Source of the DNA: Rhodobacteraceae bacterium Alg238-R152
Lineage (GTDB): Bacteria > Pseudomonadota > Alphaproteobacteria > Rhodobacterales > Rhodobacteraceae
Direction of reading: 5' to 3'
DNA: 64,000 nt
NCBI GenBank assembly: GCA_900537125.1
Contig: UNRJ01000004.1
Span: forward strand, 62,001-126,000
Shown: piece by piece, positions 48,503 to 64,000 of the stretch
Layout: every line of letters starts with the position of its first letter
Numbering within the stretch: position 1 is the stretch's first letter
The notes under the pieces: model-generated
Databases searched by the model: none
Told to the model about the DNA's origin: nothing
The model's input: only the letters and a program-made list of their open reading frames with translations
Program-made: the position numbers and the translations under genes

Positions 48503-48996
48503 TTTGAACTAGGTCAATTTGAAAGAAGGTGGAGTTAAACTCCAATATTGTGGAACAGTCTCCACATATGTTACGCGGCTCTCAACTCCTGCAAGTCCAG
48601 TTTCGGTGGCATAGTGCTGGTAGAATATACTAGTATGTCAAAGCAAATGCCAAACCTAAACAGATTCACCCCAAAATAACGGCCATTTTAGGGAGCAAGT
48701 CAATTGGTACATCTGACAGGGTAATTATTTAGCCCATATCGTTTGGCAGTTTGGAGGAGGTCACGAGACCACCACAGGCTTTCTCGAGCTATGTAACAAT
48801 GAGTAGTCAAAAATAGGCAACTGTAACCTAGCCCACTTTCAAGAACTGAATGCAAATTTGATCCCACTTTCCATTGCCCGCCAATAGGGGGCGATGGAAA
48901 ACCCAGAGACTTCAAATGATATACATTTTTGTTGACCAATGACGACGAAATGATGAATGTCGGCACACTTATAACTTGTATCCGGAGCGGTTTCTC
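48503..48996. other. AT-rich gap before the RTX gene
   Basis: No credible gene in 494 bases. It holds a 15-bp palindrome with arms TGGAGTT/AACTCCA (48530-48544) without T-tract. The remainder has no convincing promoter hexamers by eye but should contain the promoter and leader of the RTX gene. Confidence 0.5.
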
Positions 48997-51909
48997 ATGC
49001 CTACATATTCGATTTCGGAAACCGAAGTGTTCAACAGAACTTCCACGATTTCAGACGAGCATTTCGGCGTCAACTTTGTGACACACAGTGATTTCGAATT
49101 CGCCGCAGGCAGCCAACAGGTAGGAACACTCGCGTCTCTCGGAGCATCCAATTTCCGGTTTCCTGGAGGCGGCATCACAGAAGGCGACTTTGCCAACGCC
49201 TCCTTCTTGACGGGGAATTGGGCCGCTGACTCATACGGAAGCAGGACGCTAACTCCGTTGAGCAATTTTTTTGCAACTGCAGGCGAAGTCAACGCCGAAG
49301 TTCAATTGGTTATTCCAACGAGGGTTGCATTTGACGCGTCTGCTGGACAGTCGCTTTGGAATTTGGATCAAGGATCCACCGGCGAACACTACGGTGCTAG
49401 AACTACACTGGATCCCAACTATTTTACCTTGCTGGCAAGTTTCATCGACCAGGCTTTGATGCTGGCCACTCAAAACGGTGTGGAAATTTCATCCTTCGAG
49501 ATTGGCAACGAGTTCTGGCTCGGTGGTGAAATGACGGCCTCCGAATACGGATACCTAGCCGGACAGATTTCTGCCTGGCTTGATGCAAACTATCCGGGCA
49601 TTGATATTCTTGTTCAGGCGACGAACACTATTGGAATTTTTAGCCCTTACAATAATGAAACCGTCTATCTGGAGGCGTTTAGCGGGGAAGGTGGTGAAAC
49701 CGACTACACTGTGCACACCTCGCCGCCGGATGGCGTCTCCGTAACCAGTGCCACTGTGGCATCTCAAGGGAATTGGTCGGCCCAAACAAGGGATATCGCC
49801 CGAGCAATCGCAGAAAATCCTGATGGCGTGGCTGCGATTGATGGAGTGCTTTTTCACAACTACTTCGATGATGGGTTTGCAGGCATCGACACCGAAGATG
49901 AGGTGAAGTTAGAGCTGGTGTACGATCGTTTCGCCAGTTTCTCGGGCCGCTCCGATTTGGAATTCCACATCACCGAATGGAGCCCGGACACAAATAATGA
50001 CAGCGGCCTGCAAAATGCGCAGTCCTACGTCGAAGGATTCTTTGAGCTCATTCAGTGGGGCGTCGATGGAGCTGATGCGTGGCCTTTGACGTACGCCAAC
50101 CCGGGTACACGGGGACGAAATCTGATTGACACAGGCGACGCAATTTCACATCTGACATTTGCTGGCGTCGCGTTCCAGTGGCTAAGCGAATCCACCGTCG
50201 GTTTGGAAGCCAAGTATGATTATGAGGTCGCCGGTCAAATTGATGTCCACGGCTTTGGAAATTCTAATCGGATGGTTGCCTTTGTTGGCGAAAGAAGTGG
50301 CAACGCTCAGGCCAACACAATTGTGGATTTCAATAGCTTTGCGGTGAACGGCGATTATTTTGTCGTGGTTTCCACCATGGGGGACGGCGGCGCAAGTGGG
50401 ACCAGCAACACAGCTTCTCCGATATTATCCTACTCTGGGGGGGCTGTTGTCTCCGGAGGGTTGGTTACTCTTGATCTAGAGGCCTGGGACCTAGCACGAA
50501 TTGAGATGACAGCGGTGACCAACGGCGCAGATGCACTAATCGGGCGGGGTGGCAATGACACCATCACAGCAGGCGCTGGCAACGACACGATTGAAGGCGG
50601 ACATGGCACTGACTCGTTGTATGGCCAGTCAGGTAATGACCACATTCTCGGTGGCACAGGTGACGACCTTCTCGAAGGCGGAGACAACAACGATATCTTG
50701 AACGGGCAAGAAGGCGCTGACACTCTTATCGGTGGCAGCGGGTCGGACCGGTTTGTCATTGAGGCGGGTGACGAAGGTGACATCATCTCCGATTTTGCGA
50801 TTGGGCACGACCAAATCGACATCGGATCAGGCGCCAAGACCGTTGTTGTAGCGTCCCATCAAGACGGCGTCTCTCTGACAGTTAGCAGTGCATCGTTCGT
50901 CGTCCACGGGCTGAACATTGCGGATATTTCCAGCGCAATTTTCACCAACTATGGGGATCAGATTACGGTCGAAGTTGATAGCACGCCATCTTACACAACA
51001 GTGGAGATCGGTTCAGAAACCAACACCTATGGTACCAGCGGTGTTGCAGAGACTTTTCAGTGGGTAGCAACCTCTGCGGCTGGGGCGCGCTTGCGCGTCT
51101 TTGATGCAGGCGAAGACATCATCGACCTATCTTATTGGCAAGCGTCGGATTTCTCTGCACTGACTTTCACGGCCGGAACTAACTTTTTGAACGTGACTTT
51201 TGGCGAGTTTGGCATGCGTCTGTATGGGTATACTGACCCCGCCGAATTAGGTTCTAACAATTTTGTGTTTGATGGGTCAGGGGGCGGAACGGATCCATCG
51301 CCGGCTTACACAACGGTTGAAATCAGCGCGGAAACCAACACCTATGGAACCAGCGGCGTTGCAGAGTCCTTTCAATGGGTCGAAACGTCCGCGGCTGGGG
51401 CGCGCTTGCGCGACTTCGATGTAGGTGAAGACGTCATCGATCTAACGTATTGGCAAGCGTCCGATTTCTTTGCTTTGACCCTCACAGCCGGATCTAACTT
51501 TTTGAGCGTAACAGATGGCCAATCTGGCATGCGCGTGTATGGGTATACCGACCCGGCTGCACTGGGGGCCGAGGACTTCATCTTCGGCACGTCTGGAGGC
51601 GGCGGTGATCCCCAGCCAGGCGGCGTGGTGACCGTTGAGATCGGTGCGCAAACCAATACTTATGGCACCCATGGTGTTGAAGAGGTTTTTGAGTGGGTCG
51701 CAACGTCGGCTGCTGGTGCACGGTTGAGAAATGTTGACAGCACCGAAGACACAATTGATCTCACTTACTGGCAGGCCAGCAGCGTGAATGATCTGTCCTT
51801 CACAGCAGGCTCAAATTACTTACTTGTCAGCGAGGGCGGTCATGCAATGCGGATCTACGGCTATACCGACGCGAGTGAATTTGGCCAGGATTTCTTCGTT
51901 TTCGGCTGA
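48997..51909 (+). CDS. Secreted RTX protein with glycosidase-like N-terminus and triple C-terminal repeat
   Basis: 970 residues from the ATG at 48997 (GGAG upstream). Residues about 1-480 resemble a clan GH-A barrel with C-terminal sandwich (GVNFVTHSDFE...LRFPGGG-like NFRFPGGG; SSFEIGNEFWLGG with possible acid/base Glu172; EFHITEWSPD with possible nucleophile Glu327), as in GH39/51/79-type enzymes. Residues about 508-590: RTX nonapeptides (GGNDTITAGAGNDTIEGG...). Residues about 667-970: three roughly 93-residue repeats. No N-terminal signal peptide, which with RTX repeats predicts type I secretion; no transporter genes are nearby. Substrate unknown, probably an extracellular polysaccharide. 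Confidence 0.85.
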   Translation: MPTYSISETEVFNRTSTISDEHFGVNFVTHSDFEFAAGSQQVGTLASLGASNFRFPGGGITEGDFANASFLTGNWAADSYGSRTLTPLSNFFATAGEVNAEVQLVIPTRVAFDASAGQSLWNLDQGSTGEHYGARTTLDPNYFTLLASFIDQALMLATQNGVEISSFEIGNEFWLGGEMTASEYGYLAGQISAWLDANYPGIDILVQATNTIGIFSPYNNETVYLEAFSGEGGETDYTVHTSPPDGVSVTSATVASQGNWSAQTRDIARAIAENPDGVAAIDGVLFHNYFDDGFAGIDTEDEVKLELVYDRFASFSGRSDLEFHITEWSPDTNNDSGLQNAQSYVEGFFELIQWGVDGADAWPLTYANPGTRGRNLIDTGDAISHLTFAGVAFQWLSESTVGLEAKYDYEVAGQIDVHGFGNSNRMVAFVGERSGNAQANTIVDFNSFAVNGDYFVVVSTMGDGGASGTSNTASPILSYSGGAVVSGGLVTLDLEAWDLARIEMTAVTNGADALIGRGGNDTITAGAGNDTIEGGHGTDSLYGQSGNDHILGGTGDDLLEGGDNNDILNGQEGADTLIGGSGSDRFVIEAGDEGDIISDFAIGHDQIDIGSGAKTVVVASHQDGVSLTVSSASFVVHGLNIADISSAIFTNYGDQITVEVDSTPSYTTVEIGSETNTYGTSGVAETFQWVATSAAGARLRVFDAGEDIIDLSYWQASDFSALTFTAGTNFLNVTFGEFGMRLYGYTDPAELGSNNFVFDGSGGGTDPSPAYTTVEISAETNTYGTSGVAESFQWVETSAAGARLRDFDVGEDVIDLTYWQASDFFALTLTAGSNFLSVTDGQSGMRVYGYTDPAALGAEDFIFGTSGGGGDPQPGGVVTVEIGAQTNTYGTHGVEEVFEWVATSAAGARLRNVDSTEDTIDLTYWQASSVNDLSFTAGSNYLLVSEGGHAMRIYGYTDASEFGQDFFVFG
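50995..51906 (+). repeat. Three tandem coding repeats at the 3' end of the RTX gene
   Basis: Units begin at about 50995, 51310 and 51628. Each encodes TVEIxxxTNTYGTxGVxExFxWVxTSAAGARLR, then a D-x-x-E-D-x-IDLxYWQAS segment, then FTAGxNxLxV...MRxYGYTD and a final FxFG. Units one and two are closest, including at the base level; the third is more diverged. Units 1-2 and 2-3 are joined by Gly-rich linkers (GSGGGTDPSP, SGGGGDPQPGG). Confidence 0.9.
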
Positions 51910-53391: not shown

Positions 53392-53469
53392 CCAGTGCCC
53401 CCGCCAAAAAATAACAACAAAAAAGAGAGCACGTAATGTGCCCCCTCTACTTTGCTTCATCGTTGACGC

Positions 53470-54705
53470 TTAACCGCCTTGGCGCACTTCTTTGATCCAG
53501 GCCACAATCAGATTACGGCTTTCCTGATCCATTTCGATGGCGTTGGGCGGCGGCATGGCATGTGTGCGGCCCGCTTGTAGGTAGATCTGCTCAGCATGGC
53601 GCGCCACATCCGCCTCGGTTTCCAAAACCACACCCTTGGGGGCCCAGTGCAGGCCCTCCCAAGAGGGTTCGCGGGCGTGACACATGGAGCAGTTGCCGGT
53701 GACCGCGTAGTAGGCGTCTTCAAATCCTTCGGCGGAAGCAAATTTCTGCTCGTAGGCGGTCAGTTCGCGGGCTTCTGATTCCTCGTAGGTTTCACCAGTT
53801 TGGGCCGTGGAGAGCCAAGCGATCGCAATCATCAACAGCGCGGTGATCAGCCAAGTCCACAAGGGGCCTTTGCCGGTTTTGTGCATGGTGTTGAAGTAGT
53901 GACGGATGGTGACGCCGGTCAAAAAGATCAGGCTGGCGATGATCCAAGCATACTCGGTGGCAAAGGCCAGCGGGTAGTGGTTGGACAGCATAAGGAACAC
54001 CACCGGCAAGGTCAGATAGTTGTTGTGGGTGGAGCGCACCTTGGCGATCTTGCCGTATTTGGCATCCGGGGTGCGGCCGTTTTTCAGATCGTCCACCACA
54101 ATGCGCTGGTTTGGCATGATCTGGAAGAACACGTTGGCGGTCATGATGGTGGCGGTGAAGGCCCCAAGGTGTAGCAGCGCGGCACGTCCGGTGAAGATCT
54201 GGTTGTAGCCCCAGGACATCACCACAAGGATCACAAACAGCAGCAGCATCAGCAGGGTTGGTTGCTCGCTGAGCTTGGATTTACACATGAAGTCATAAGC
54301 CAGCCAGCCAATGGTCAGGGAGCCACCGGAGATCAGGATGCCTTGGAACAGGCTCAAGTCGGCTTTGGTTGGGTCCAGCAAGAACAGCTCACCGCCCACC
54401 CAATAGACAATCATCAGAAGCGCAGCGCCAGAGAGCCATGTGCTGTAGCTCTGCCATTTGTGCCATGTCAGATGCTCGGGCATTTCCGCAGGCGCGACCA
54501 TGTATTTCACGGTGTGATAAAACCCGCCGCCGTGTACTTCCCATTCCTCGCCAGACGCCCCTTCGGGCAGATGTTTGGCGGGTTTCAGCATCAGATCGAG
54601 TGCGATGAAATAAAACGATGCGCCAACCCATGCCATGGCGGTGATGACGTGTAGCCAGCGCACCGAGAACGCAATCCAGTCCCACAAAATAGCCATATCG
54701 TACAT
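53470..54705 (-). CDS. puuD: Membrane-bound urate hydroxylase with cytochrome c domain
   Basis: Oxidises urate to 5-hydroxyisourate at the inner membrane. 411 residues: about eight transmembrane helices (first WIAFSVRWLHVITAMAWVGASFYFIALDL), then a C-terminal cytochrome c domain facing the periplasm with heme site CSMCH at residues 339-343 and a possible axial Met in HAMPPPN. This architecture is diagnostic of the PuuD family, which passes electrons to the respiratory chain instead of making H2O2. ATG at 54705 with GGGGAGA upstream. It is in the same orientation as hiuH, the next enzyme, but a terminator lies between. Confidence 0.95.
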   Translation of the reverse strand: MYDMAILWDWIAFSVRWLHVITAMAWVGASFYFIALDLMLKPAKHLPEGASGEEWEVHGGGFYHTVKYMVAPAEMPEHLTWHKWQSYSTWLSGAALLMIVYWVGGELFLLDPTKADLSLFQGILISGGSLTIGWLAYDFMCKSKLSEQPTLLMLLLFVILVVMSWGYNQIFTGRAALLHLGAFTATIMTANVFFQIMPNQRIVVDDLKNGRTPDAKYGKIAKVRSTHNNYLTLPVVFLMLSNHYPLAFATEYAWIIASLIFLTGVTIRHYFNTMHKTGKGPLWTWLITALLMIAIAWLSTAQTGETYEESEARELTAYEQKFASAEGFEDAYYAVTGNCSMCHAREPSWEGLHWAPKGVVLETEADVARHAEQIYLQAGRTHAMPPPNAIEMDQESRNLIVAWIKEVRQGG

Positions 54706-54840
54706 GGCGGTCTCCCCTAGATTCGAATTTTAACCAGTCTACCCGACAGGGCATTTTTTCGGAATTCCCTCTAAATGCCAAGCAGTATCAAAAATTTCAG
54801 AACAATAGAAACCCACCCTTTTGGGACGTGTCGCAAAGAA

Positions 54841-54873
54841 AAAGGCGCGTCCGAAACCGGAGCGCGCCTTTTC
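54841..54873 (-). terminator. Terminator downstream of hiuH
   Basis: On the minus strand AAAAGGCGCG-type arms close a hairpin with an inner TCCG/CGGA helix and one bulged base, ending in CCTTTTTCTTT. It lies between hiuH and puuD, so puuD probably also has its own promoter in 54706-54840. Confidence 0.8.
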
Positions 54874-54895
54874 AAAACTGTTTTGAGGTAAAGCC

Positions 54896-55249
54896 TTAGC
54901 TGCCGCGATAGGTGGAATAGCCAAACGGAGAGAGCAGCAGAGGCACGTGGTAGTGCGAGGCCTCGGACATGCCAAAGCGGATCGGCACAACGTCGAGGAA
55001 GCGAGGCTCTTCCGGTGGTGTGCCACAGGCGTCAAGGTAAGCCCCGGCGTGGAAGACCAGTTCATATTCACCAGTGGCAAATTCTGCGGCGGGCAGGATT
55101 TGTTCGTCGGTGCGACCATCATCATTGGTGACCAAAGATTTGAGTTTGGTGCGGGTCTCGCCCTCAATCCGGTAGAGATCAATTTTCAGGCCCTCAGCAG
55201 GGCAGCCACGGGCGGTGTCCAGAACATGGGTGGTCAGATAGCCGGTCAT
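54896..55249 (-). CDS. hiuH: 5-Hydroxyisourate hydrolase
   Basis: Hydrolyses the PuuD product 5-hydroxyisourate to OHCU. 117 residues with the transthyretin-like fold; catalytic signature pieces [16 protein letters not shown] at the N-terminus, [19 protein letters not shown] at the C-terminus ending in the diagnostic YRGS. No signal peptide, so cytoplasmic. Divergent from the TSUP permease gene. Confidence 0.97.
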
Positions 55250-55430
55250 GGATGTGTCTCCTGATTGTTTGTCCTAGTTTTAAGCCGGTTAGGGCCGTGG
55301 TGGCAAAGCCTGTCTGAGGCGATGCACTTTCCACTTTTTCTTGAAAAACAACTGCGATTATCTGGCATATCCAGCAATGCGCGCTACGGTGCGCGGACCG
55401 CCAGACAAAATTTGATAGAGAAAGACCCCG

Positions 55431-56189
55431 ATGACTGTTTTGGAAATTTTTGTGCTGGCCTTGGCCGGATTTGGCGCTGGCGTGGTGAATACCATTGCGG
55501 GCGGCGGCACGTTTTTGACCTTCCCGGCTCTGGTCTGGGCCGGGGTGCCGCCGGTGGCGGCCAATGCCACCAGCGCGGTGTCGGTGTTCCCCGGTTATCT
55601 GGGCGGGGTGCTTGGCTTTTTGTCGGAACTCAAAACTCTGTCACGGGCGCAGATGATCCGGTTGACGGTGATCACCTTGTCAGGCGGATTGGCAGGCTCA
55701 CTGTTGTTGCTGGTGTCCTCCAACGAGGTGTTTTCTTATGTGGTGCCGTTCCTGTTGTTGTTTGCCACCACGGCATTCTTACTGGGGGCAAAGCTACAGG
55801 TCTGGGCACAGGAAAAAGCCAAATGGTTCAAGCCGGAAGGTGCCGTGGGGCTGTTTCTGGTGAGCGTCTATGGCGGCTATTTCAACGGCGGGTTGGGGAT
55901 TGTGCTTTTGGCGCTGTTTGCCATGTGGGGCTGGCGCGACATTCACCTGATGAACGGCGTGAAAAACGGGCTTTCGTTTGCGCTCTCCGCCATTTCAGTG
56001 GTGACTTTTGCCATTGCTGGCCTGGTGGTCTGGCCGATGGCGGTGCTGATGATGGTGTTTGCCGTGTTGGGTGGCTACAGCGGGGCTTTTGTGGCCAAGG
56101 CCATTCCGGCCTCGGTGGTGCGTTGGATCGTGGTGGTGATTGGCTACGGCATGAGCGCAGTATTTCTGGCGCGGTTGTTTGTCAGCTGA
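55431..56189 (+). CDS. TSUP (TauE/SafE) family permease
   Basis: 252 residues, about eight hydrophobic segments. The two repeated TSUP motifs are visible (GFGAGVVNTIAGGGTFLTFPALVWAGVPPVAANATSAVSVFPGYLGG and SVYGGYFNGGLGIVLLALFAMWGWRDIHLMNGVKNGLSF). Family members move sulfite, sulfoacetate or other small organic anions. It is the only plus-strand gene inside the purine block; a purine-related or glyoxylate-related anion is possible but not shown. Confidence 0.9.
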   Translation: MTVLEIFVLALAGFGAGVVNTIAGGGTFLTFPALVWAGVPPVAANATSAVSVFPGYLGGVLGFLSELKTLSRAQMIRLTVITLSGGLAGSLLLLVSSNEVFSYVVPFLLLFATTAFLLGAKLQVWAQEKAKWFKPEGAVGLFLVSVYGGYFNGGLGIVLLALFAMWGWRDIHLMNGVKNGLSFALSAISVVTFAIAGLVVWPMAVLMMVFAVLGGYSGAFVAKAIPASVVRWIVVVIGYGMSAVFLARLFVS

Positions 56190-56218
56190 CCCGATTTGAG
56201 CCAGCTGACAGGTTTTTT
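56181..56218 (+). terminator. Terminator overlapping the end of the TSUP gene
   Basis: Stem GTCAGCTG / CAGCTGAC (8 bp) with a 13-nt loop, then AGGTTTTTT. The left arm overlaps the stop codon of the permease gene; the convergent guanine deaminase gene ends just beyond. Confidence 0.75.
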
Positions 56219-56223
56219 GTCGT

Positions 56224-57582
56224 TCAGGCGGATTTGAGAACCGGCGTTGGTGCAGCTGTGCTTGCAAGTGTCGCTGCACCGTTTTTCTGTGCCACGCCAG
56301 CGACATAGGTCTCGGCCACAGCGCGGTCATCGCCCAAGGTTTGCAAGATGAACAGCTCTTCCGAGAGGCTTTCCGCGCGTTGCATGCGCAGGTCCATGGC
56401 GTGGGTCGCGTGGGAATCCAGTACCACAACATCCGCATCCGAACCTGCCGCCAGCGTGCCGATCTTGTCAGACAGGCCCAGCACCGCAGCGTTGCCACGG
56501 GTGATCCAGTCAAAGGCGCGCAGCGGGTGCAGTTTCTGCTTCTGAAGTTGCAGGATTTTGTAGCCCTCATTGAGGGTTTGCAGCATCGAGTAGCTGGTCC
56601 CTGCCCCGATATCGGTGGCAATAGCGTTCTGAATGCCACGGCCGCGCAGGCCACCGTCGTCAAACAGACCGCTCCCGAGGAACAGGTTGGAGGTTGGGCA
56701 GAACACCGGCTTGGCCTGAGTTTCGGCCAGCACGTCAATCTCGCGTGGGGTCAGGTGGATAGAGTGACCCAGCAAGGTTTTGGGCGTCAGCAGGCCATAG
56801 CCTTCATAGACACCCAGATAATCTGGCGCGTCGGGATACAGCTCTTTGGTGAAGGCAATCTCGTCGTGGTTTTCGCTCAGGTGGGTCTGCACAAAACACT
56901 CGGGGTGCTCCGCCACCAAAGCCTGCGCCATCTGCATCTGCTCCGGCGTTGAGGTGATCGCAAAGCGCGGCGTGATGGCGTAGTGCGCTCGCCCCTTGCC
57001 ATGCCACTTGGCAATCATCTTTTTGCTGTCGTCATAGCTGGATTGCGGCGTGTCGCGCAGCGCGTCTGGCGCGTTGCGGTCCATCATCACTTTGCCGCCA
57101 ATCATGCACATATTGCGCTTCTCAGCCTCGGCAAAATAGGCCTCTACAGAAGCCGTGTGCACCGAACAGAAAGACACAGCCGTGGTGGTGCCGTGGCCGG
57201 TCAGAAGATCATAGAAATGCCCCGCCATCGCGGTGCTGTGCTTGAGATCTTCAAAGCGGGTTTCTTCGGGGAAGGTGTAGTTGTTGAGCCAGTCCAGAAG
57301 CTGTTCACCCCAGGAGGCAATCACCTGCACCTGCGGGAAATGCACATGGGTGTCGATGAAACCGGGCAAGAGCAGATGTGGCCGGTGGTCTTTGACCGTG
57401 GCCTTGGGGGCCTGCGCAGCGACGTCTTGGTAGACTCCGGTGGCTTTGATCTTGCCGCCTTCGATCAGGATCGCGCCGTCCTTGATGTAGGTATAAGCGT
57501 CGGTGTCCATTTCATCCGCTGGGGCGGCGTGGAAATCCAGAATACGGCCCCGCAGGAGCGTTTGGGTCTCTGTGTGTGACAT
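56224..57582 (-). CDS. guaD: Guanine deaminase
   Basis: Deaminates guanine to xanthine. 452 residues from the ATG at 57582 (MSHTETQTLLRGRILDF). Amidohydrolase metal sites: LLPGFIDTHVHFPQ, FVQTHLSENHDE, LGHSIHLT and AIATDIGAGTSYSMLQTLNEGYKI, the last two being typical of guanine deaminases. It follows the purine permease gene by about 85 bases and probably belongs to the same transcript. A longer frame to 57645 exists but does not look like the family start. Confidence 0.94.
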   Translation of the reverse strand: MSHTETQTLLRGRILDFHAAPADEMDTDAYTYIKDGAILIEGGKIKATGVYQDVAAQAPKATVKDHRPHLLLPGFIDTHVHFPQVQVIASWGEQLLDWLNNYTFPEETRFEDLKHSTAMAGHFYDLLTGHGTTTAVSFCSVHTASVEAYFAEAEKRNMCMIGGKVMMDRNAPDALRDTPQSSYDDSKKMIAKWHGKGRAHYAITPRFAITSTPEQMQMAQALVAEHPECFVQTHLSENHDEIAFTKELYPDAPDYLGVYEGYGLLTPKTLLGHSIHLTPREIDVLAETQAKPVFCPTSNLFLGSGLFDDGGLRGRGIQNAIATDIGAGTSYSMLQTLNEGYKILQLQKQKLHPLRAFDWITRGNAAVLGLSDKIGTLAAGSDADVVVLDSHATHAMDLRMQRAESLSEELFILQTLGDDRAVAETYVAGVAQKNGAATLASTAAPTPVLKSA

Positions 57583-57668
57583 GGTCGGGTCCAATGTGGA
57601 GGAATGAAAAGGTGCGGGCCGCCGAAGGACAAGGCAGGCCCGCACAAGGGCGTCCGGGGAAGTGGACG

Positions 57669-59249
57669 TTATTCAGCGGGGGCCGGGACCTCATCCACCA
57701 CCGCGTTTGCGTTCACGAGGTTGTCCTCTTTGTGAAACAGCGGGTAGATGTAGAGGAAAGCAGCAGCAATCAGGTAGCCGGAGGTGACACCGGACAGTGT
57801 GGGCCAATGCAGGCTGGCACCGTGGATGATGCCCAAAGCGGACATCACGGCAGCGGCCAGAGCAAAGCCACCAGCGTTGCGGAAGCGACCGTCGATCACG
57901 CTGGCCACAATGGCACCCCATATCAGACCGGTCAGGATCGCCCCTTGGGACAAAGCCAGATGGCCTTCGAAATGCGCGCCTTGCTGCAACAGGGCTGCGG
58001 TCAGAGCGTCATCACCAAGGTTTGGCAAGCCAGCCACGCCCACAGCACCCAAGGCCCCAATCAATGCACCCCACTTGATCATCAGGAAAGCCGACACATG
58101 TGGCATCATCGCGATGGTCACCGCGGCCATGTGATCGGTCTTCACAGAATGCGCGGTGTTGGTGATCAGGCTGAGCGCGACAAACACCAGCACCGGTGCG
58201 GCAGCGGCCGTGGGGATCAGGTTGGTGAGGAAGGCCAGCAGACCGAAGAAAGCCGCCAGCGGGATCACGGCCCCCACCCCAATGATGTAGCCCGCATGTG
58301 CACCCATCCGTTTGTAGGCCGGGTGGCCGATGTAAGCGGTCGTTGGGAATGGGGAGCCAAACACAGCGCCAACCATGGTGCCGAGACCGTCGGTGATCTG
58401 ACAGGTGGCAACAGGGTAATGATCCCCCGCCGCTTCGGCGCTTTCCACGTTGTTCATGGTTTCGATGAAGTTGTAGATCTGCACCGGCACCAGCACGAGG
58501 AACAGCTCGGGGTTGGCAAACAGATACTGGATGCCGGCAATCAGGTCGCCAAAGTAGGGCAGCGGCGGGTAGAAGCCAACGCCATCCAGGCTCAGCGTGG
58601 CTTCGCCAATACCAAAGGCCACCACGGTGCCAACAATCAGCGCCAAAAGACCGGCGGGGATGTTATAGGGCAGGCGGAAGCGGCCAACGAGGCCCCAGAG
58701 GATGATGATCATCGAGGCAAAGCCGATGAAAGGGTTTTCAAACACGGTGGCCAGCGGCACGGTGCCGATGAACACCAGCGCAATGCCACAGAGCGTGCCA
58801 AGCATACCCGCGCGTGGGGTCACACGTTTCAGCCACGGGCCAATCACCGCGCCCAGCGCAGCAACGATGCCGCCCATGAAGCCTGCACCGATACCAACCT
58901 GCCAGGCCAGCATGGGGTCGTTGGTGGACCAGTAGATCGGGCCAATCACGCCAAACAGATAGACAAACATCACCGGCGTCGAGATGCCGTAAGGCAACGC
59001 TGTCACGTCGCGGCCATGTTGAGCCGCTGCACGTTTGGCCAGGCCAACATAAACGGCGATCCCGGCCAGAATGGCCACCGCCGCGCCGGGCACGATGCGG
59101 CCATAGACAATCTCGGCGGGCATCTGGAACACAAACTGACAGACGCCAGCCAGCACCATCAGGTTGATCAGATTGTCGGTGAACAGCGCCCAAAAGGCAC
59201 TAAAGTCGCTGCGGTCAAACAGCTTATAGGTATAGCTACCATCCCTCAT
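57669..59249 (-). CDS. NCS2-family purine permease
   Basis: 526 residues, around 12-14 membrane helices, of the NCS2 nucleobase transporter fold. GDHYPVATCQITDGLGTMVGAVFGSPFPTTAYIGHPAYKRMGAHAGYIIG holds the family substrate-site helix region. The ATG at 59249 has GGAGG six bases upstream, so the longer frame is not used. Next to guanine deaminase it probably imports guanine, xanthine, hypoxanthine or urate; exact substrate unknown. Confidence 0.9.
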   Translation of the reverse strand: MRDGSYTYKLFDRSDFSAFWALFTDNLINLMVLAGVCQFVFQMPAEIVYGRIVPGAAVAILAGIAVYVGLAKRAAAQHGRDVTALPYGISTPVMFVYLFGVIGPIYWSTNDPMLAWQVGIGAGFMGGIVAALGAVIGPWLKRVTPRAGMLGTLCGIALVFIGTVPLATVFENPFIGFASMIIILWGLVGRFRLPYNIPAGLLALIVGTVVAFGIGEATLSLDGVGFYPPLPYFGDLIAGIQYLFANPELFLVLVPVQIYNFIETMNNVESAEAAGDHYPVATCQITDGLGTMVGAVFGSPFPTTAYIGHPAYKRMGAHAGYIIGVGAVIPLAAFFGLLAFLTNLIPTAAAAPVLVFVALSLITNTAHSVKTDHMAAVTIAMMPHVSAFLMIKWGALIGALGAVGVAGLPNLGDDALTAALLQQGAHFEGHLALSQGAILTGLIWGAIVASVIDGRFRNAGGFALAAAVMSALGIIHGASLHWPTLSGVTSGYLIAAAFLYIYPLFHKEDNLVNANAVVDEVPAPAE

Positions 59250-59729
59250 GTGGGACCTCCATTTGCGAGCCGAAGGGATGCCGCCCTCTCCTCGAGGCGA
59301 CACCATCCGGCGTGAACTCACTGGGCTGCGATATGCGGTCCAGTGCCCCGAAGTTGGGGAGTTGCGGCAGGTTCAGAGGTCAGCGCCGGGGCCACTTCAG
59401 CCACGCAGTGCGTGGCGACCACAGCAGGCCGCATTTTGCGGCTACCGCCTGCCCACGAGGGGCAGATCAAGGGCGCAACGGACAAGCCGTCGCGGTTTTG
59501 GGTGCGTGAGGGAGACAGGAACAGGCCAGCTCCAGACCGCGCCTGAGCGCCGTCTTTCTGAGCCATCATGTCCAAGCGGTGTGCCATCTGGTCTCCCCGA
59601 CCGCGCAAGTTTCGCGCGCGTGTGGCTTTGTTTTACAGCGAGCGACTACGGGGCAAAACGGCGCATATCGGGAGATACTTTCAATGGATTCTTGAATAAA
59701 ACGTGGCGTAAGGCTTTTGCACTGAAAGC
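59250..59729 (-). other. Long GC-rich leader or promoter region of the purine permease gene
   Basis: No confident gene between the bhcD terminator and the permease start. A minus-strand frame of 96 codons (59318-59608, an internal ATG at 59587 has GGGGAG upstream) is repetitive and matches nothing. GC-rich inverted segments are frequent (for example CCACGCAGTGCGTGG near 59401). A leader of up to about 390 bases before a purine transporter could contain an RNA regulator, but I cannot identify one by eye. Confidence 0.4.
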
Positions 59730-59770
59730 TAAAAAAGAAGCCTCCGCAGCCAATTTGGCAACGGAGGCAC
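59730..59770 (-). terminator. Terminator after bhcD
   Basis: On the minus strand GCCTCCG / CGGAGGC (7-bp stem, 15-nt loop) followed by TTCTTTTTT, ending the bhc transcript about 30 bases after the bhcD stop. It separates the bhc operon from the permease leader. Confidence 0.85.
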
Positions 59771-59797
59771 GTGATTTCAAACTGTTAGAGGAAGTGT

Positions 59798-60763
59798 TTA
59801 AAAATCAACCTCGATGGCGATGCCTTTTTCCACCGCTAGATCAACCACAGCAGCGGCGACGGCCAAGTCCTGCAAGCCAACGCCGGTTCCATCAAACAAG
59901 GTGATCTGATCCGCAGAGGTGCGGCCCGCATTGGTGCCGTTAATCACCGCGCCAATTTCACCCACGTCGCTTTCCTTGATCAGCCCTTCGGCCACGGCGT
60001 GCTGCGCTTCCCCAATGGAGATCGACTGTGCCACTTCGTCGGTGAACACGGATGCCTTGGCCAACAGCGCGCTTTCAACCTCTTGTTTGCCTTTGGTGTC
60101 GGTGCCCATGCAGGCGATGTGCGTGCCGGGCGCCACATGATCCGCCATCAGAGACGGTGCAAAGGCGGAGGTGATCGAGATGATCACGTCTGCTTCGCCC
60201 ATGCCATCGAGCTCGACTGCCTCAAAAGGCAGACCGGCCTCAGTGGCGACCTTCTCGATGTTGGGCAGCATCTCGGGGTGGTAGTTCCAGCCGATGACTT
60301 TCTCAAACTGACGCTGCTCCAGCGCGGCACGCAGTTGGAAGGTGGCCTGATGCCCCGCGCCAATCACGCCGATGACCTTAGCGTCCTCACGGGCCAGGTG
60401 TTTGATCGACACCGAAGACGCAGCAGCAGTGCGCAGCGCGGTCAAGAGGTTGCCGCCAACCATGGCTTTGACCTTGCCGGTGTCCGGATCGAACAGGAAC
60501 ACGGTGGACTGGTGGTTGATCAATCCGCGTTTTTCCAGGTTGTTGGGCCAGTAGCCGCCCGCCTTCAGGCCGAGTGTCAAACCAGCCTGATCAAAGCCGC
60601 CTTTGAAACCATAAAGCGCGTCTTCGTGGCCGATGGCTTCGCGCACCACAGGGAAGTTATAAGCGTCGCGCGCGGCCATGGCGGCAAAGACTTTTTCAAC
60701 CGCATCAAACGCCGCCTCGCGGGTCATCAGATCGGCAATTTCGCGTTCAGGTACAATCAGCAT
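59798..60763 (-). CDS. bhcD: Iminosuccinate reductase
   Basis: Reduces iminosuccinate to aspartate with NADH, regenerating the amino donor of the beta-hydroxyaspartate cycle. 321 residues of the ornithine cyclodeaminase/mu-crystallin family, with NAD-binding VIGVIGAGHQATFQLRAALEQR and YGFKGGFDQAGLTLGLKAGGYWPNN near the substrate site. Identity as BhcD comes from the neighbouring bhcC, bhcB and bhcA in the known order. Last gene of the operon. Confidence 0.92.
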   Translation of the reverse strand: MLIVPEREIADLMTREAAFDAVEKVFAAMAARDAYNFPVVREAIGHEDALYGFKGGFDQAGLTLGLKAGGYWPNNLEKRGLINHQSTVFLFDPDTGKVKAMVGGNLLTALRTAAASSVSIKHLAREDAKVIGVIGAGHQATFQLRAALEQRQFEKVIGWNYHPEMLPNIEKVATEAGLPFEAVELDGMGEADVIISITSAFAPSLMADHVAPGTHIACMGTDTKGKQEVESALLAKASVFTDEVAQSISIGEAQHAVAEGLIKESDVGEIGAVINGTNAGRTSADQITLFDGTGVGLQDLAVAAAVVDLAVEKGIAIEVDF

Positions 60764-60874
60764 GGTGCTCTCTCATCAGATTTTTGAGTGCCCACGTGTC
60801 GATGCTGGAAAGGTAAAGCAGACACACGGGCACCGGTCCGGCGCCCCATGCGCCGGAAGTGGTGAGTGGTGGGA

Positions 60875-62038
60875 TCAGTAAGCGCGGCCGCGGGCGGACA
60901 CAGGCCAAACCGTTTCCACTTTGCCGTCGCGCACCCCAACGTACCAGTCATGCACGTTGGCGGTTGGATCGCAGTGCCCCGGCACCAGCTTAAGCTTGTC
61001 GTTGACCTTCAGCACACCGGTTGGGTCCATGACCACGCCATGCTCGTCAGAACATTTGATGTATTCCACATCGTCGCGGCCAAAGATCACTGGCAGGCCG
61101 CTGTCTACGGATTGGGCTTTCAGGCCGGCATCCACGATGGCTTTGTCCGCTTTGGCGTGGCTCATGACGCTGGTCAGAATGAAAAACGCGTTTTCCCACT
61201 CACCTTGGTCGATGCGGTTGCCGTCTTTGTCCAGAATGCGGCCGTAGTCTGCATCCATGAAGGCGTAGGAGCCACATTGCAGCTCGTTGTACACACCAGA
61301 GTTGCTCTCAAAATAGTATGAGCCAGTGCCGCCACCAGAGACCAATTCGCAAGCGATGCCTTCAGCTTTCAGGCCATCCACAGCGTCCTGTACCTGCGCA
61401 ATCGCCACGTCGAGTTTGGCCTTGCGATCCTCAAAGCTGTCCATGTGTTGCATTGCGCCCTGATAGGCCTGAATGCCGGTGAACTTGAGGTTTTCGGCGG
61501 CTTTCACGGCTTTGGCAATCTCCACAATCGCCTCAGTTGTGGTCACACCACAGCGGCCCGCGCCACAGTCGATCTCGACAAAGACCTCCAGTTCGGTGCC
61601 GTGCAGAACAGCTGCTGCAGAGAGGTCAGCCACATTGGCGACGTCATCCACACAGACAATTGTGCGGCTGCCAAATTTGGGCAGGCGGGCCAGACGGTCG
61701 ATCTTGGCCGGGTCACGTACCTGGTTGGAGACCAGAATGTCCTTGATGCCGCCACGGGCAAAGACCTCGGCCTCTGAGACCTTCTGGCAGCACACGCCAA
61801 TGGCACCACCGAGTTTTTCCTGCAGCTTGGCCACATCAATGGATTTGTGCATCTTACCGTGCACGCGGTGACGCATGCCGTGGGCCTTGGCGTAGTCGCC
61901 CATCTTCTTGATGTTGCGCTCCAGCGCATCGAGGTCCAGAACCAGCGCCGGGGTTTGAATGTCTGCGGCGTCCATGCCCGGCTTGGCCGGAATGTCATAG
62001 CCCACTTCATAGGTGTCGAGATTGGTCATGTCTTTCAT
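60875..62038 (-). CDS. bhcC: Beta-hydroxyaspartate aldolase
   Basis: Condenses glycine and glyoxylate to beta-hydroxyaspartate. 387 residues of the D-threonine-aldolase/DSD1 fold-type III PLP family; the PLP lysine is expected in HRVHGKMHKSIDVAKLQ, and late residues GHCDPTANVHDWYVGVRDG match the metal-binding C-terminal domain. Context fixes the specific role: it lies between bhcB (37-base gap) and bhcD (111-base gap). Confidence 0.94.
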   Translation of the reverse strand: MKDMTNLDTYEVGYDIPAKPGMDAADIQTPALVLDLDALERNIKKMGDYAKAHGMRHRVHGKMHKSIDVAKLQEKLGGAIGVCCQKVSEAEVFARGGIKDILVSNQVRDPAKIDRLARLPKFGSRTIVCVDDVANVADLSAAAVLHGTELEVFVEIDCGAGRCGVTTTEAIVEIAKAVKAAENLKFTGIQAYQGAMQHMDSFEDRKAKLDVAIAQVQDAVDGLKAEGIACELVSGGGTGSYYFESNSGVYNELQCGSYAFMDADYGRILDKDGNRIDQGEWENAFFILTSVMSHAKADKAIVDAGLKAQSVDSGLPVIFGRDDVEYIKCSDEHGVVMDPTGVLKVNDKLKLVPGHCDPTANVHDWYVGVRDGKVETVWPVSARGRAY

Positions 62039-62075
62039 GTCCTTATCCTCTGTCGGAAATCGTATTGTGTTTGTT

Positions 62076-63047
62076 TCAGGCGGTTGCCAGCCAAGGTAAC
62101 TTGTCCAGATCGACGTTGCCGCCAGTGATAATCATCCCCAGACGTTTACCTTTGAAGGCGTCAGGGTTCTTGAGAACCGTCGCCAAGGGCACTGCGGAAG
62201 AGGGCTCCATCACGACACGCAGGTGCTTCCAGGTGAGCTTCATCGCGTCGATGATCTCTTGCTCAGACGCGGTGTAAATCTCGCTCACGTGGTTGGAGAC
62301 AAAATGCCAGGTGCGCTCTTTCAGCGGTACCAACAGCCCATCAGCTATGGTTTTCGGTGCATCATCGGCGATGATGTGTCCGGCTTTGAAGCTGCGATAG
62401 GCGTCGTCCGCCTGTTCCGGCTCCGCGGCAATCACCTGCGTTTCTGGTGCCAAGGTGGAAAGCGTCAGGCAGGTGCCGGAGATCATGCCGCCGCCACCAA
62501 TTGGCGCAACCACCATGTCCAGGCCGTCGGTCTGCTCGATGAATTCTTTGGAACAAGTGCCCTGCCCCGCAATCACGCGATGGTCGTTATAAGGGTGCAC
62601 AAAATCGCCGCCGGTTGCGGCCTGCACCTCGGCAAAAGTCGCCTCGCGCGAAGTCGTGGACGGCTCACATTCGGTGATCTTGCCGCCATAGCGGCGCACG
62701 GTGTCCTTTTTGGCCTGTGGCGCGGTGCGTGGCATAACCACGTTGCAAGGAATGCCACGTTTCATAGCCGCATAGCTCAAGCAAGACGCATGATTGCCGG
62801 AGGAATGCGTCGCCACCCCCTTCTTGGCCTGCTCGTCATCCAAGCCAAAGACCGCATTGGCCGCGCCGCGCACTTTGAAGGCGCCCGGCTCCTGAAAGTT
62901 CTCACATTTGAAGAACAATTCCGCGCCGGTCAGCTCATTGAGGTAGTCCGACACACGCACCGGCGTGCGGCGGATGTAGGGCAAAATGCGCGTATGCGCC
63001 TCCAGCATGTCTTCATAGGTTGGGATATACATATCGCTGTCCAACAT
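62076..63047 (-). CDS. bhcB: Beta-hydroxyaspartate dehydratase
   Basis: Removes water from beta-hydroxyaspartate to give iminosuccinate. 323 residues of the serine/threonine dehydratase fold-type II family: PLP lysine 58 in ENFQEPGAFKVRGAANAVF, phosphate-cupping loop near SSGNHASCLSYAAMKRG, and GGGGMISGTCLTLS. The ATG at 63047 overlaps the bhcA stop (TGATG), fixing the start. Confidence 0.95.
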   Translation of the reverse strand: MLDSDMYIPTYEDMLEAHTRILPYIRRTPVRVSDYLNELTGAELFFKCENFQEPGAFKVRGAANAVFGLDDEQAKKGVATHSSGNHASCLSYAAMKRGIPCNVVMPRTAPQAKKDTVRRYGGKITECEPSTTSREATFAEVQAATGGDFVHPYNDHRVIAGQGTCSKEFIEQTDGLDMVVAPIGGGGMISGTCLTLSTLAPETQVIAAEPEQADDAYRSFKAGHIIADDAPKTIADGLLVPLKERTWHFVSNHVSEIYTASEQEIIDAMKLTWKHLRVVMEPSSAVPLATVLKNPDAFKGKRLGMIITGGNVDLDKLPWLATA

Positions 63048-64000
63048 CAGGCCGCGTCTTTTTGAGCTGTAGCAGTGTTCCCACGGTAGAAATCTTGTGC
63101 GGCGGCCACGCCGCTGCCCAGTTTGATGTCCAAGCCAAGGTCCACCATGCACATTTCAGCGGTTGCGATGCCGGAGAGCGCCATCACGTCGGTCAGGCTG
63201 CCAAGGTGACCGATACGGAAGACTTTGCCAGCCACTTCCCCAAGGCCCACGCCAAAGGCGACACCGTATTTCTCGGCCGCATGGGTGACGATGTCAGTGG
63301 CGTTAAACCCTTCGGGTGTTTTGATCGCGCTCACTGTGTCGGAAAAAACCGACGGGTTGGCCGCGCAGAGCTCCAGCCCCCAAGCCCCCACGGCAGCACG
63401 CACACCTTCAGCAATGCGAGTGTGACGGGCGAAGACGTTGTCCAGACCTTCGTTCAGCAGAATGGCGCAAGCTTCATTCAGACCGTTCAGCAGCCCCACG
63501 GCAGGCGTGTAAGGATAGGCGTTGGCGGCGTAGCCTTTGGCCATGTCGTGCACGTCAAAGAAGGTACGCGGCAGCTTGGCGGTTTTTGTGGTGGCCATGG
63601 CTTTGGCGCTGAAGCCCACGATGGCGAGACCAGCGGTGAGCATGAAACCTTTTTGCGAGCCGGTCACGGCAACATCCACGCCCCATTCGTCCATGCGGAA
63701 GTCCATCGAGGCAATCGAGGACACGCCATCGACAAACAGCAGTGCGGGGTGGCCAGCGGAGTCCAAAGCGCGGCGCACGGCGGCGATGTCGGATTTCACG
63801 CCAGTCGCCGTCTCGTTGTGGGTGGCCAGAACGGCTTTGATGTCATGGTTGGTGTCAGCGGTGAGGATTTCCTCATAGCGATCCGCGGGCAGGCCTTCAC
63901 CCCAAGGGGTTTCCACAACCTTCACGTCAAGCCCATGGCGTTGGCACATATCGATCCAGCGGTGGCTGAACATGCCGTTACGTGCAGCGAGGATTTTGTC
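63047..64000 (-). CDS. bhcA: Aspartate--glyoxylate aminotransferase, 5' end outside window
   Basis: Transaminates glyoxylate to glycine with aspartate as donor, first step of the beta-hydroxyaspartate cycle. Class V aminotransferase; the PLP lysine is in DVAVTGSQKGFMLTAGLAIVGFS. The frame remains open to the right edge (DKILAARNGMFSHRWIDMC), so the N-terminal region lies outside. The family includes serine-glyoxylate aminotransferases; bhcB, bhcC and bhcD in order identify it as BhcA. An IclR-type regulator bhcR often adjoins bhcA and would be outside the window. Confidence 0.95.
   Translation of the reverse strand, partial: DKILAARNGMFSHRWIDMCQRHGLDVKVVETPWGEGLPADRYEEILTADTNHDIKAVLATHNETATGVKSDIAAVRRALDSAGHPALLFVDGVSSIASMDFRMDEWGVDVAVTGSQKGFMLTAGLAIVGFSAKAMATTKTAKLPRTFFDVHDMAKGYAANAYPYTPAVGLLNGLNEACAILLNEGLDNVFARHTRIAEGVRAAVGAWGLELCAANPSVFSDTVSAIKTPEGFNATDIVTHAAEKYGVAFGVGLGEVAGKVFRIGHLGSLTDVMALSGIATAEMCMVDLGLDIKLGSGVAAAQDFYRGNTATAQKDAA

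Follow-up and report, generated by a model that had tools for sequence, protein, structure and literature searches.

The stretch analyzed here, 64,000 nucleotides of Rhodobacteraceae bacterium Alg238-R152 (hereafter the window; positions 62,001–126,000 of contig UNRJ01000004.1, which is C4 of the 14 contigs of a 4.27-Mb genome), carries genes assigned to early purine degradation directly next to bhcABCD, the genes of the beta-hydroxyaspartate cycle. We read the two groups as linked modules of a purine-carbon route that is otherwise dispersed over the genome, with the bhc genes as the sink for purine-derived glyoxylate, alongside glycolate, and assign this reading a probability of roughly 0.73. 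In many marine bacteria, purine-to-glyoxylate genes lie beside bhc or on the same plasmid island, which suggests that the bases of DNA and RNA are an overlooked food for the cycle. When urate is degraded by this route, each purine yields one glyoxylate. The cycle converts two glyoxylate to oxaloacetate without loss of CO2; glyoxylate carboligase (Gcl), the entry enzyme of the glycerate pathway, loses one CO2 per two glyoxylate.

Linkage was scored in a sample of 248 genomes, representing 247 genera of the family to which the window belongs. Stretches of up to 20 kb were taken around 136 BhcC matches in 132 genomes (the matches listed down to 352 bits, the own match excluded and those near 200 bits left out), giving 137 loci together with the own locus. 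These were compared with the window proteins and with AllE, PuuE-UraD, AllA, LysR, glyceraldehyde-3-phosphate dehydrogenase (GAPDH), and xanthine dehydrogenase (XDH). All of bhcA, bhcB, bhcC, and bhcD are present in 98 of the 137 loci (97 genomes), which we refer to as full loci; the other 39 lie on cut contigs, hold solitary BhcC relatives or fall below the tblastn threshold with one of the genes. One or more of the purine genes allA, allE, puuE-uraD, hiuH, and puuD are found in 39 of the 98 full loci, own locus included, compared with 2.45 predicted by random placement, a figure that places the five genes independently in a 3.8-Mb genome and ignores both their mutual clustering and the kinship of the genomes. 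Counted singly, allA is present in 31 full loci, allE in 30, puuE-uraD in 30, hiuH in 32, and puuD in 27, and all five occur together in 22. Where at least 17 kb had been fetched, 34 of 78 full loci are linked to at least one of the five; ten of the 39 remaining loci carry purine genes as well, bringing the overall count to 49 of 137.

That the two gene groups are neighbors by chance in this one genome, where the rest of the pathway is indeed scattered, is refuted by this recurrence and keeps a negligible probability. The initial annotation had stated that its proposal would fall if the clusters adjoined in this genome only, and linkage is present in 38 of the 97 other full loci. The very arrangement of the window is also found in three Shimia records (L151, L152, and L153, the last without the TauE gene). 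In an unsupervised clustering of the neighboring genes, with family names taken from scanned homologues, the five bhc families are followed by eight of which seven are purine-cluster genes and the eighth is GAPDH (AllE 37 genomes, PuuE-UraD 37, AllA 36, GAPDH 33, HiuH 33, PuuD 31, permease 30, LysR 29). An ABC ATPase, named by eye, comes next with 20 genomes, and every other family is found in at most eight. The usual layout is allE> <bhcR bhcA> bhcB> bhcC> bhcD> (gap>) <permease <allA <puuE-uraD hiuH> <lysR puuD>, and orientation is constant among the full loci: allA lies downstream on the strand opposite to bhc in 31 of 31, and puuD downstream on the same strand as bhc in 27 of 27.

The GAPDH gene lies within the fetched stretch of 28 of the 98 full loci (L016 among them), mostly right after bhcD, and adjoins bhc also in Vreelandella neptunia (L225), which we take to be a gammaproteobacterium. 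Some genomes hold two bhc loci, namely G055 (L095 and L108) and G173 and G099 (L114 and L115); of the two copies in G055, one is accompanied by the entire purine cluster and the other by allE as the sole member of the five purine genes.

Within the window, BhcA, BhcB, BhcC, and BhcD are identified by curated models, and in the full genome all four score above the equivalog cut-offs. On the minus strand lie bhcD (iminosuccinate reductase, 59798–60763; NF045643, 590.2 bits, cut-off 500), bhcC (3-hydroxy-D-aspartate aldolase, 60875–62038; NF045642, 760.6 bits, cut-off 690), bhcB (beta-hydroxyaspartate dehydratase, 62076–63032; NF045641, 576.3 bits, cut-off 550; the open reading frame scanned was 62076–63152, with the start picked by eye), and bhcA (aspartate-glyoxylate aminotransferase, 63047–64000). 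The last gene is cut by the window end and continues to the equivalent of position 64237; its fragment scores 582.4 bits, below the NF045640 cut-off of 650, and the complete gene (L003:12048–13238) 759 bits. The gene for the IclR-type regulator BhcR, which the initial annotation had named as one to look for in the flank, is found next to bhcA and divergent from it, at the equivalent of 64407–65258 (NF045644, 405.6 bits, cut-off 350). Among solved structures, BhcC matches 6qkb (722.6 bits), and the next relatives are D-threonine aldolases. The own BhcC shares 97% identity with the protein from Shimia sagamensis DSM 29734 (order Rhodobacterales), so that the source organism is probably a Shimia or close to it.

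The purine module comprises puuD (urate hydroxylase, a membrane urate oxidase; 53470–54705; Urate_ox_N, PF06181, 431.2 bits), whose product on inspection by eye shows a CxxCH haem motif close to its C-terminus, hiuH or uraH (5-hydroxyisourate hydrolase; 54896–55249; TIGR02962, 127.7 bits, cut-off 87.45; PF00576), guaD (guanine deaminase; 56224–57582; TIGR02967, 559 bits, cut-off 375.4), and a gene for a putative purine permease (57669–59249), all on the minus strand. A TauE/SafE-family transporter gene lies between hiuH and guaD on the plus strand (55431–56189; PF01925, 123.8 bits). The adjacency of these purine genes to bhcD-C-B-A, nearly all on the minus strand, had been proposed from the letters and open reading frames and is borne out by the models at the same positions, the TauE/SafE-type gene being the exception in strand. 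The permease takes the name xanthine/uracil permease from its relatives alone: 14 of 15 plasmid relatives among the matches listed (84–88% identical) are named "xanthine/uracil/vitamin C permease". Its earlier designation as NCS2 agrees with such names and has no family match behind it, the protein matching neither Pfam (at E 10) nor NCBIfam and having no credible solved relative (best E 0.053). Relatives of 60–90% identity occur in 68 plasmid records, yet no model of Pfam-A or NCBIfam matches this family, which is apparently a gap in both libraries.

The association extends to named relatives and to plasmids. One or more of the five purine genes occur in 48 of the 80 named loci that are nearest to the own one in BhcC, a set hence biased to near relatives; for those with full bhcABCD the count is 46 of 75. 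Near-complete islands that include xdh genes and guaD are present in Fulvimarina endophytica (L212, Hyphomicrobiales) and Palleronia marisminoris (L230, cut before puuD); Stappia sp. BW2 (L216, Hyphomicrobiales) has the ureide part and hiuH. On plasmid pBMJM1_3 of Leisingera thetidis (L236, NZ_CP109790.1), an annotated route from guanine and xanthine to glyoxylate is contained together with bhcABCD in 22.7 kb. The genes read modABC, allE, bhcR, bhcABCD, an AmiS/UreI urea-channel gene (PF02293), a permease gene, allA, puuE, uraH, lysR, puuD, lysR, xdhABC, a permease gene, and guaD. Its puuE has 471 codons, the length of the own puuE-uraD fusion, and its allE is annotated as "bifunctional allantoicase/(S)-ureidoglycine aminohydrolase". 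At least 80% of this island is found in 17 plasmid records, all from Leisingera; 45 Pseudosulfitobacter records match it as well, with 55% covered among the matches listed (20). The 811-kb plasmid of Ruegeria sp. THAF33 carries the genes from allE through the permease after xdhC, where the stretch ends before any guaD. The Shimia arrangement is probably a partly scattered version of the compact island seen in many relatives and on plasmids. The Leisingera island includes genes for molybdate uptake (modABC); XDH needs molybdenum. A chemotaxis gene set lies beside the island.

The remainder of the route was located elsewhere in the own genome. Contig C1 has a row of lysR (LysR by Pfam), a puuE-uraD fusion gene (allantoinase PuuE and 2-oxo-4-hydroxy-4-carboxy-5-ureidoimidazoline (OHCU) decarboxylase), allA (ureidoglycolate lyase), and a permease gene, named from a 57% identical counterpart in L095 that is a xanthine permease by model. 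Contig C7 has an intact allE followed directly by a gene of the same GAPDH family as above (L150:2384–3475). On contig C9 xdhB reaches 1310.6 bits (cut-off 849.5) and is the sole XdhB above cut-off in the genome; xdhA and xdhC are the frames flanking it, named by position alone. XDH, urate hydroxylase, 5-hydroxyisourate hydrolase, OHCU decarboxylase, allantoinase, and ureidoglycolate lyase are all encoded, and the predicted route runs from xanthine through urate, 5-hydroxyisourate, OHCU, allantoin, allantoate, and ureidoglycolate to glyoxylate. The allantoate step is the least sure. AllC is above cut-off in none of 15 hand-picked genomes (own genome 210.4 against 597.75 bits), and one of these genomes, G081, whose cluster (L086) is full, lacks any match to AllC. 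The AllE proteins of five loci exceed the cut-off of 350 of the model "bifunctional allantoicase/(S)-ureidoglycine aminohydrolase" (496.4–515.9 bits), the own one with 496.4 bits; two plain aminohydrolase models score higher for the latter.

The initial annotation had noted that xanthine dehydrogenase and the enzymes from OHCU to ureidoglycolate are outside the window, and XdhB, OHCU decarboxylase, and ureidoglycolate lyase are indeed encoded on other contigs. Glyoxylate as a product of purine degradation in this organism, on which its proposal depended, is backed by the xanthine-to-glyoxylate genes, with the allantoate step unsure. The description of the locus as a unit for growth on purines is supported in that the link recurs and that allE and allA adjoin the bhc genes of relatives; it is not supported for the own locus by itself, which is incomplete, with allA, allE, puuE-uraD, and xdh elsewhere.

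Nor do the modules look like one transcription unit. Predicted intrinsic terminators on the minus strand follow bhcD directly (59728–59775; fold −22.4 kcal/mol, z −4.55, equalled by 0 of 200 shuffled sequences, then TTCTTTTTT), hiuH (54825–54880; −23.8 kcal/mol, z −3.16, 3 of 200 shuffles as good, with a T run), and puuD (53422–53448; an 11-pair stem and a T run; −16.9 kcal/mol and z −4.63 for the fold of 53415–53455). A general scan was uninformative, with 17 terminator-like sites where 13.0 are expected and 2 promoter-like sites where 3.7 are expected, and only the puuD site was used from its terminators. A single operon of bhc and purine genes was rejected on account of these predicted folds and of the opposite-strand gene inside the purine module; conserved promoter elements also differ between the modules. 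Because terminator-like folds follow bhcD, hiuH, and puuD and the elements are separate, the two modules are probably transcribed apart.

In the gap between bhcR and bhcA, two conserved boxes have seed matches in 128 and 141 of 159 loci and score 34–36 bits at the own bhcA. We interpret one of them as palindromic, in keeping with a site for an IclR-family regulator. PMC11323563 reports a potential BhcR-binding palindrome upstream of bhcA and gives glyoxylate as the effector of BhcR. In the regions between puuE and hiuH of relatives, box 2 reaches at least 12 bits in 8 of 65 cases (0.6% in shuffles), scores that we attribute mostly to a different palindrome, TTTC-N10/11-GAAA. The latter is found in 35 of 65 puuE-hiuH, 10 of 64 upstream-allE, and 1 of 52 lysR-puuD regions, with plain-shuffle expectations of 0.3, 0.3, and 0.2, many of these loci being close relatives; it also occurs in 15 of 154 bhcR-bhcA regions, a count without a shuffle comparison.

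In the window, a copy of this operator-like palindrome (TTTC-N11-GAAA, 55328–55346) lies upstream of hiuH as a proposed LysR site. It is identical in 18 of 19 bases to one at L006:10970–10988, which stands upstream of puuE-uraD on C1, beside the lysR gene. Since the TTTC-GAAA pattern has five other hits within the window, the operator argument rests on the identity of these two own copies. The pair is the best evidence that the scattered purine genes may still form one regulon, presumably under the lysR next to puuE-uraD. As box 2 and the palindrome resemble each other weakly, BhcR may exert some cross-control of purine genes. Glyoxylate is the likely link between the modules.

From these data we propose the following model. 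The module of permease, guanine deaminase, 5-hydroxyisourate hydrolase, and urate hydroxylase would take up guanine, xanthine, and urate and carry out the early steps of their degradation; the unlinked xdhABC, puuE-uraD with allA, and allE would continue it to glyoxylate, urea, and ammonia. The module bhcABCD, activated by BhcR upon glyoxylate, would join two glyoxylate to oxaloacetate and release no CO2. Promoters and regulators would be separate, a LysR-type operator on hiuH and puuE-uraD and BhcR on bhc, with coupling through glyoxylate.

Several observations weigh against this model. None of the five purine genes lies in the fetched stretch of 59 of the 98 full loci. Co-occurrence was rejected as evidence because AllA (229 of 248 genomes above cut-off) and PuuD (234 of 248) are near universal with or without bhc and show no extra association with it; BhcC is above cut-off in 105. 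In G210, the other genome of the sample that belongs to the window's genus, a solitary BhcC relative is accompanied by allE and gap, and BhcB is not above cut-off; Shimia sp. R9_2 (L156) has puuD and the permease alone near bhc, and Palleronia caenipelagi (L188) has the purine block inverted and upstream of bhc. In the own genome, the predicted terminator folds stand between the two modules, and the strong bhcR-bhcA boxes are not at the purine promoters, where box 2 is weak (10.7 bits at hiuH, 5.7 bits at puuE-uraD). Finally, a glcD-like gene is present on contig C2 (443.7 bits, cut-off 567.9) with a second related gene beside it.

The glcD-like genes, together with the 59 unlinked loci, favor an explanation in which the cycle serves glycolate from algal exudate and the purine genes are neighbors for other reasons, such as a shared accessory region. 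The cycle was worked out for glycolate in Paracoccus, according to PMC11323563. A glcD gene, searched with the own GlcD-like protein as the one query, itself under the curated GlcD cut-off, adjoins bhc in 1 of 137 loci (L017), compared with 49 of 137 for at least one purine gene; in the 80 named loci this query has matches in three, at 23–24% identity. Moreover, the linked set includes the late genes allE and allA, and islands that are complete or nearly so are found repeatedly, in two gene orders and also on plasmids. We consider this explanation unlikely, if worth keeping in mind. Because of the glcD-like genes on C2, glycolate is likely a parallel input to the own cycle.

Alternatively, purines could be used for nitrogen alone, the glyoxylate by-product being removed by malate synthase or transamination so that the cycle adds little. 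Most purine carbon leaves as CO2 and urea by established biochemistry and, with PuuD and AllA near universal and BhcC above cut-off in fewer than half of the genomes, many relatives handle purines without the cycle. Such use for nitrogen leaves the repeated placement of bhc among ureide genes, in constant orientation, unexplained, and we regard it as rather improbable. The AmiS/UreI-type urea channel gene that adjoins bhcD on pBMJM1_3 fits nitrogen and carbon use equally. Gcl (TIGR01504) is above cut-off in none of the 248 genomes (best 363.7 against 711.2 bits) and in 1 of 14 control genomes.

A FastTree phylogeny of BhcC, from which 5 of the 137 sequences were left out (short or with stops), requires at least 22 changes of linkage among 83 scored full loci. 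One clade holding the linkage is not supported by this tree, in which few inner branches are strong (23 of 129), and for the latter reason gain and loss of linkage are indistinguishable. Because orientation is constant in the 98 full loci, we infer one original arrangement that would have been followed by losses or transfer.

The bhcR-bhcABCD locus of Paracoccus denitrificans resembles the one described here in its divergent bhcR/bhcA layout, and the four enzymes and BhcR pass the curated models. It was described for glycolate; here, purine genes flank bhc in many genera. In E. coli the allantoin genes are grouped with gcl. The allantoin/glyoxylate regulon of that organism (allA, gcl, AllR) likewise combines ureidoglycolate lyase and ureidoglycine aminohydrolase genes with a glyoxylate sink and a glyoxylate-sensing IclR-family regulator (AllR); it differs in that it starts at allantoin rather than at guanine or urate, and in its sink, which is gcl instead of bhcABCD. 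A further difference is AllC, which stays below its cut-off in the 15 genomes of the present set in which it was sought. The association would thus be a second case of ureide genes with a glyoxylate sink under such a regulator, with the sink enzyme exchanged. Ruegeria pomeroyi DSS-3 is a comparable roseobacter with xanthine dehydrogenase and purine catabolism; PMC9038784 gives the xdh locus tags SPO0652-0654 and credits the purine pathway to Cunliffe 2016.

Purine-derived glyoxylate, earlier taken for a less described input, already has a place in print: purine bases and allantoin are named among the glyoxylate sources in the introductory paragraph that leads to the cycle in PMC11323563. For the adjacency of bhc and purine genes we found no report in a full-text literature search; most subscription papers lie outside such a search, so this is not proof of absence. 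The cycle has mostly been presented as a route for algal glycolate. A guanine-to-oxaloacetate island, carried on plasmids in places, may enable marine bacteria to retain both of the glyoxylate carbons that nucleobases yield. If nucleobases are a second input to the cycle, and perhaps the genetically preferred one, marine purines would supply roseobacters with carbon as well as nitrogen, and bhc gene counts in ocean data would not stand for the use of glycolate by itself. Since cultured strains carry such plasmid islands, the idea is open to direct tests.

A reduced form of the association may exist as well. On the BhcC tree, 25 loci have a BhcC relative without bhcA, bhcB or bhcD in the fetched stretch, and 23 of these fall outside the group of 97 cycle BhcC, the tree being weakly resolved. 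Purine genes accompany eight solitary loci, one fragment off the tree included: six have allE, allA, and puuE-uraD beside them (L117, L118, L129, L136, L140, and L145), and two allE alone (L127 and L147). In a search of 9 genomes for BhcB, none of the eight solitary-BhcC genomes had one above cut-off (best 245.3 against 550 bits). The solitary relatives keep 126 to 161 of the 168 positions that are near-invariant in cycle BhcC (seven of the eight compared), and possibly perform a one-enzyme condensation of glyoxylate and glycine that is tied to purine breakdown and independent of the full cycle. With the guanine-to-oxaloacetate island and this BhcC-like/allE form side by side, we tentatively raise the view, slightly short of even odds, that the standing genomic partner of bhc in the family is purine degradation and not glycolate oxidation.

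TauE/SafE homologues are also found among the purine genes in L043, L065, L118, and L171. Beyond bhcR, L003:14490–18957 (the equivalent of 65489–69956) carries a 6-phosphogluconate dehydrogenase gene, folD, and a gene for formate-tetrahydrofolate ligase, a set that is kept in L151–L153. Upstream of the purine module, window positions 48976–51909 encode a 977-residue protein with RTX-type calcium-binding repeats (PF00353).

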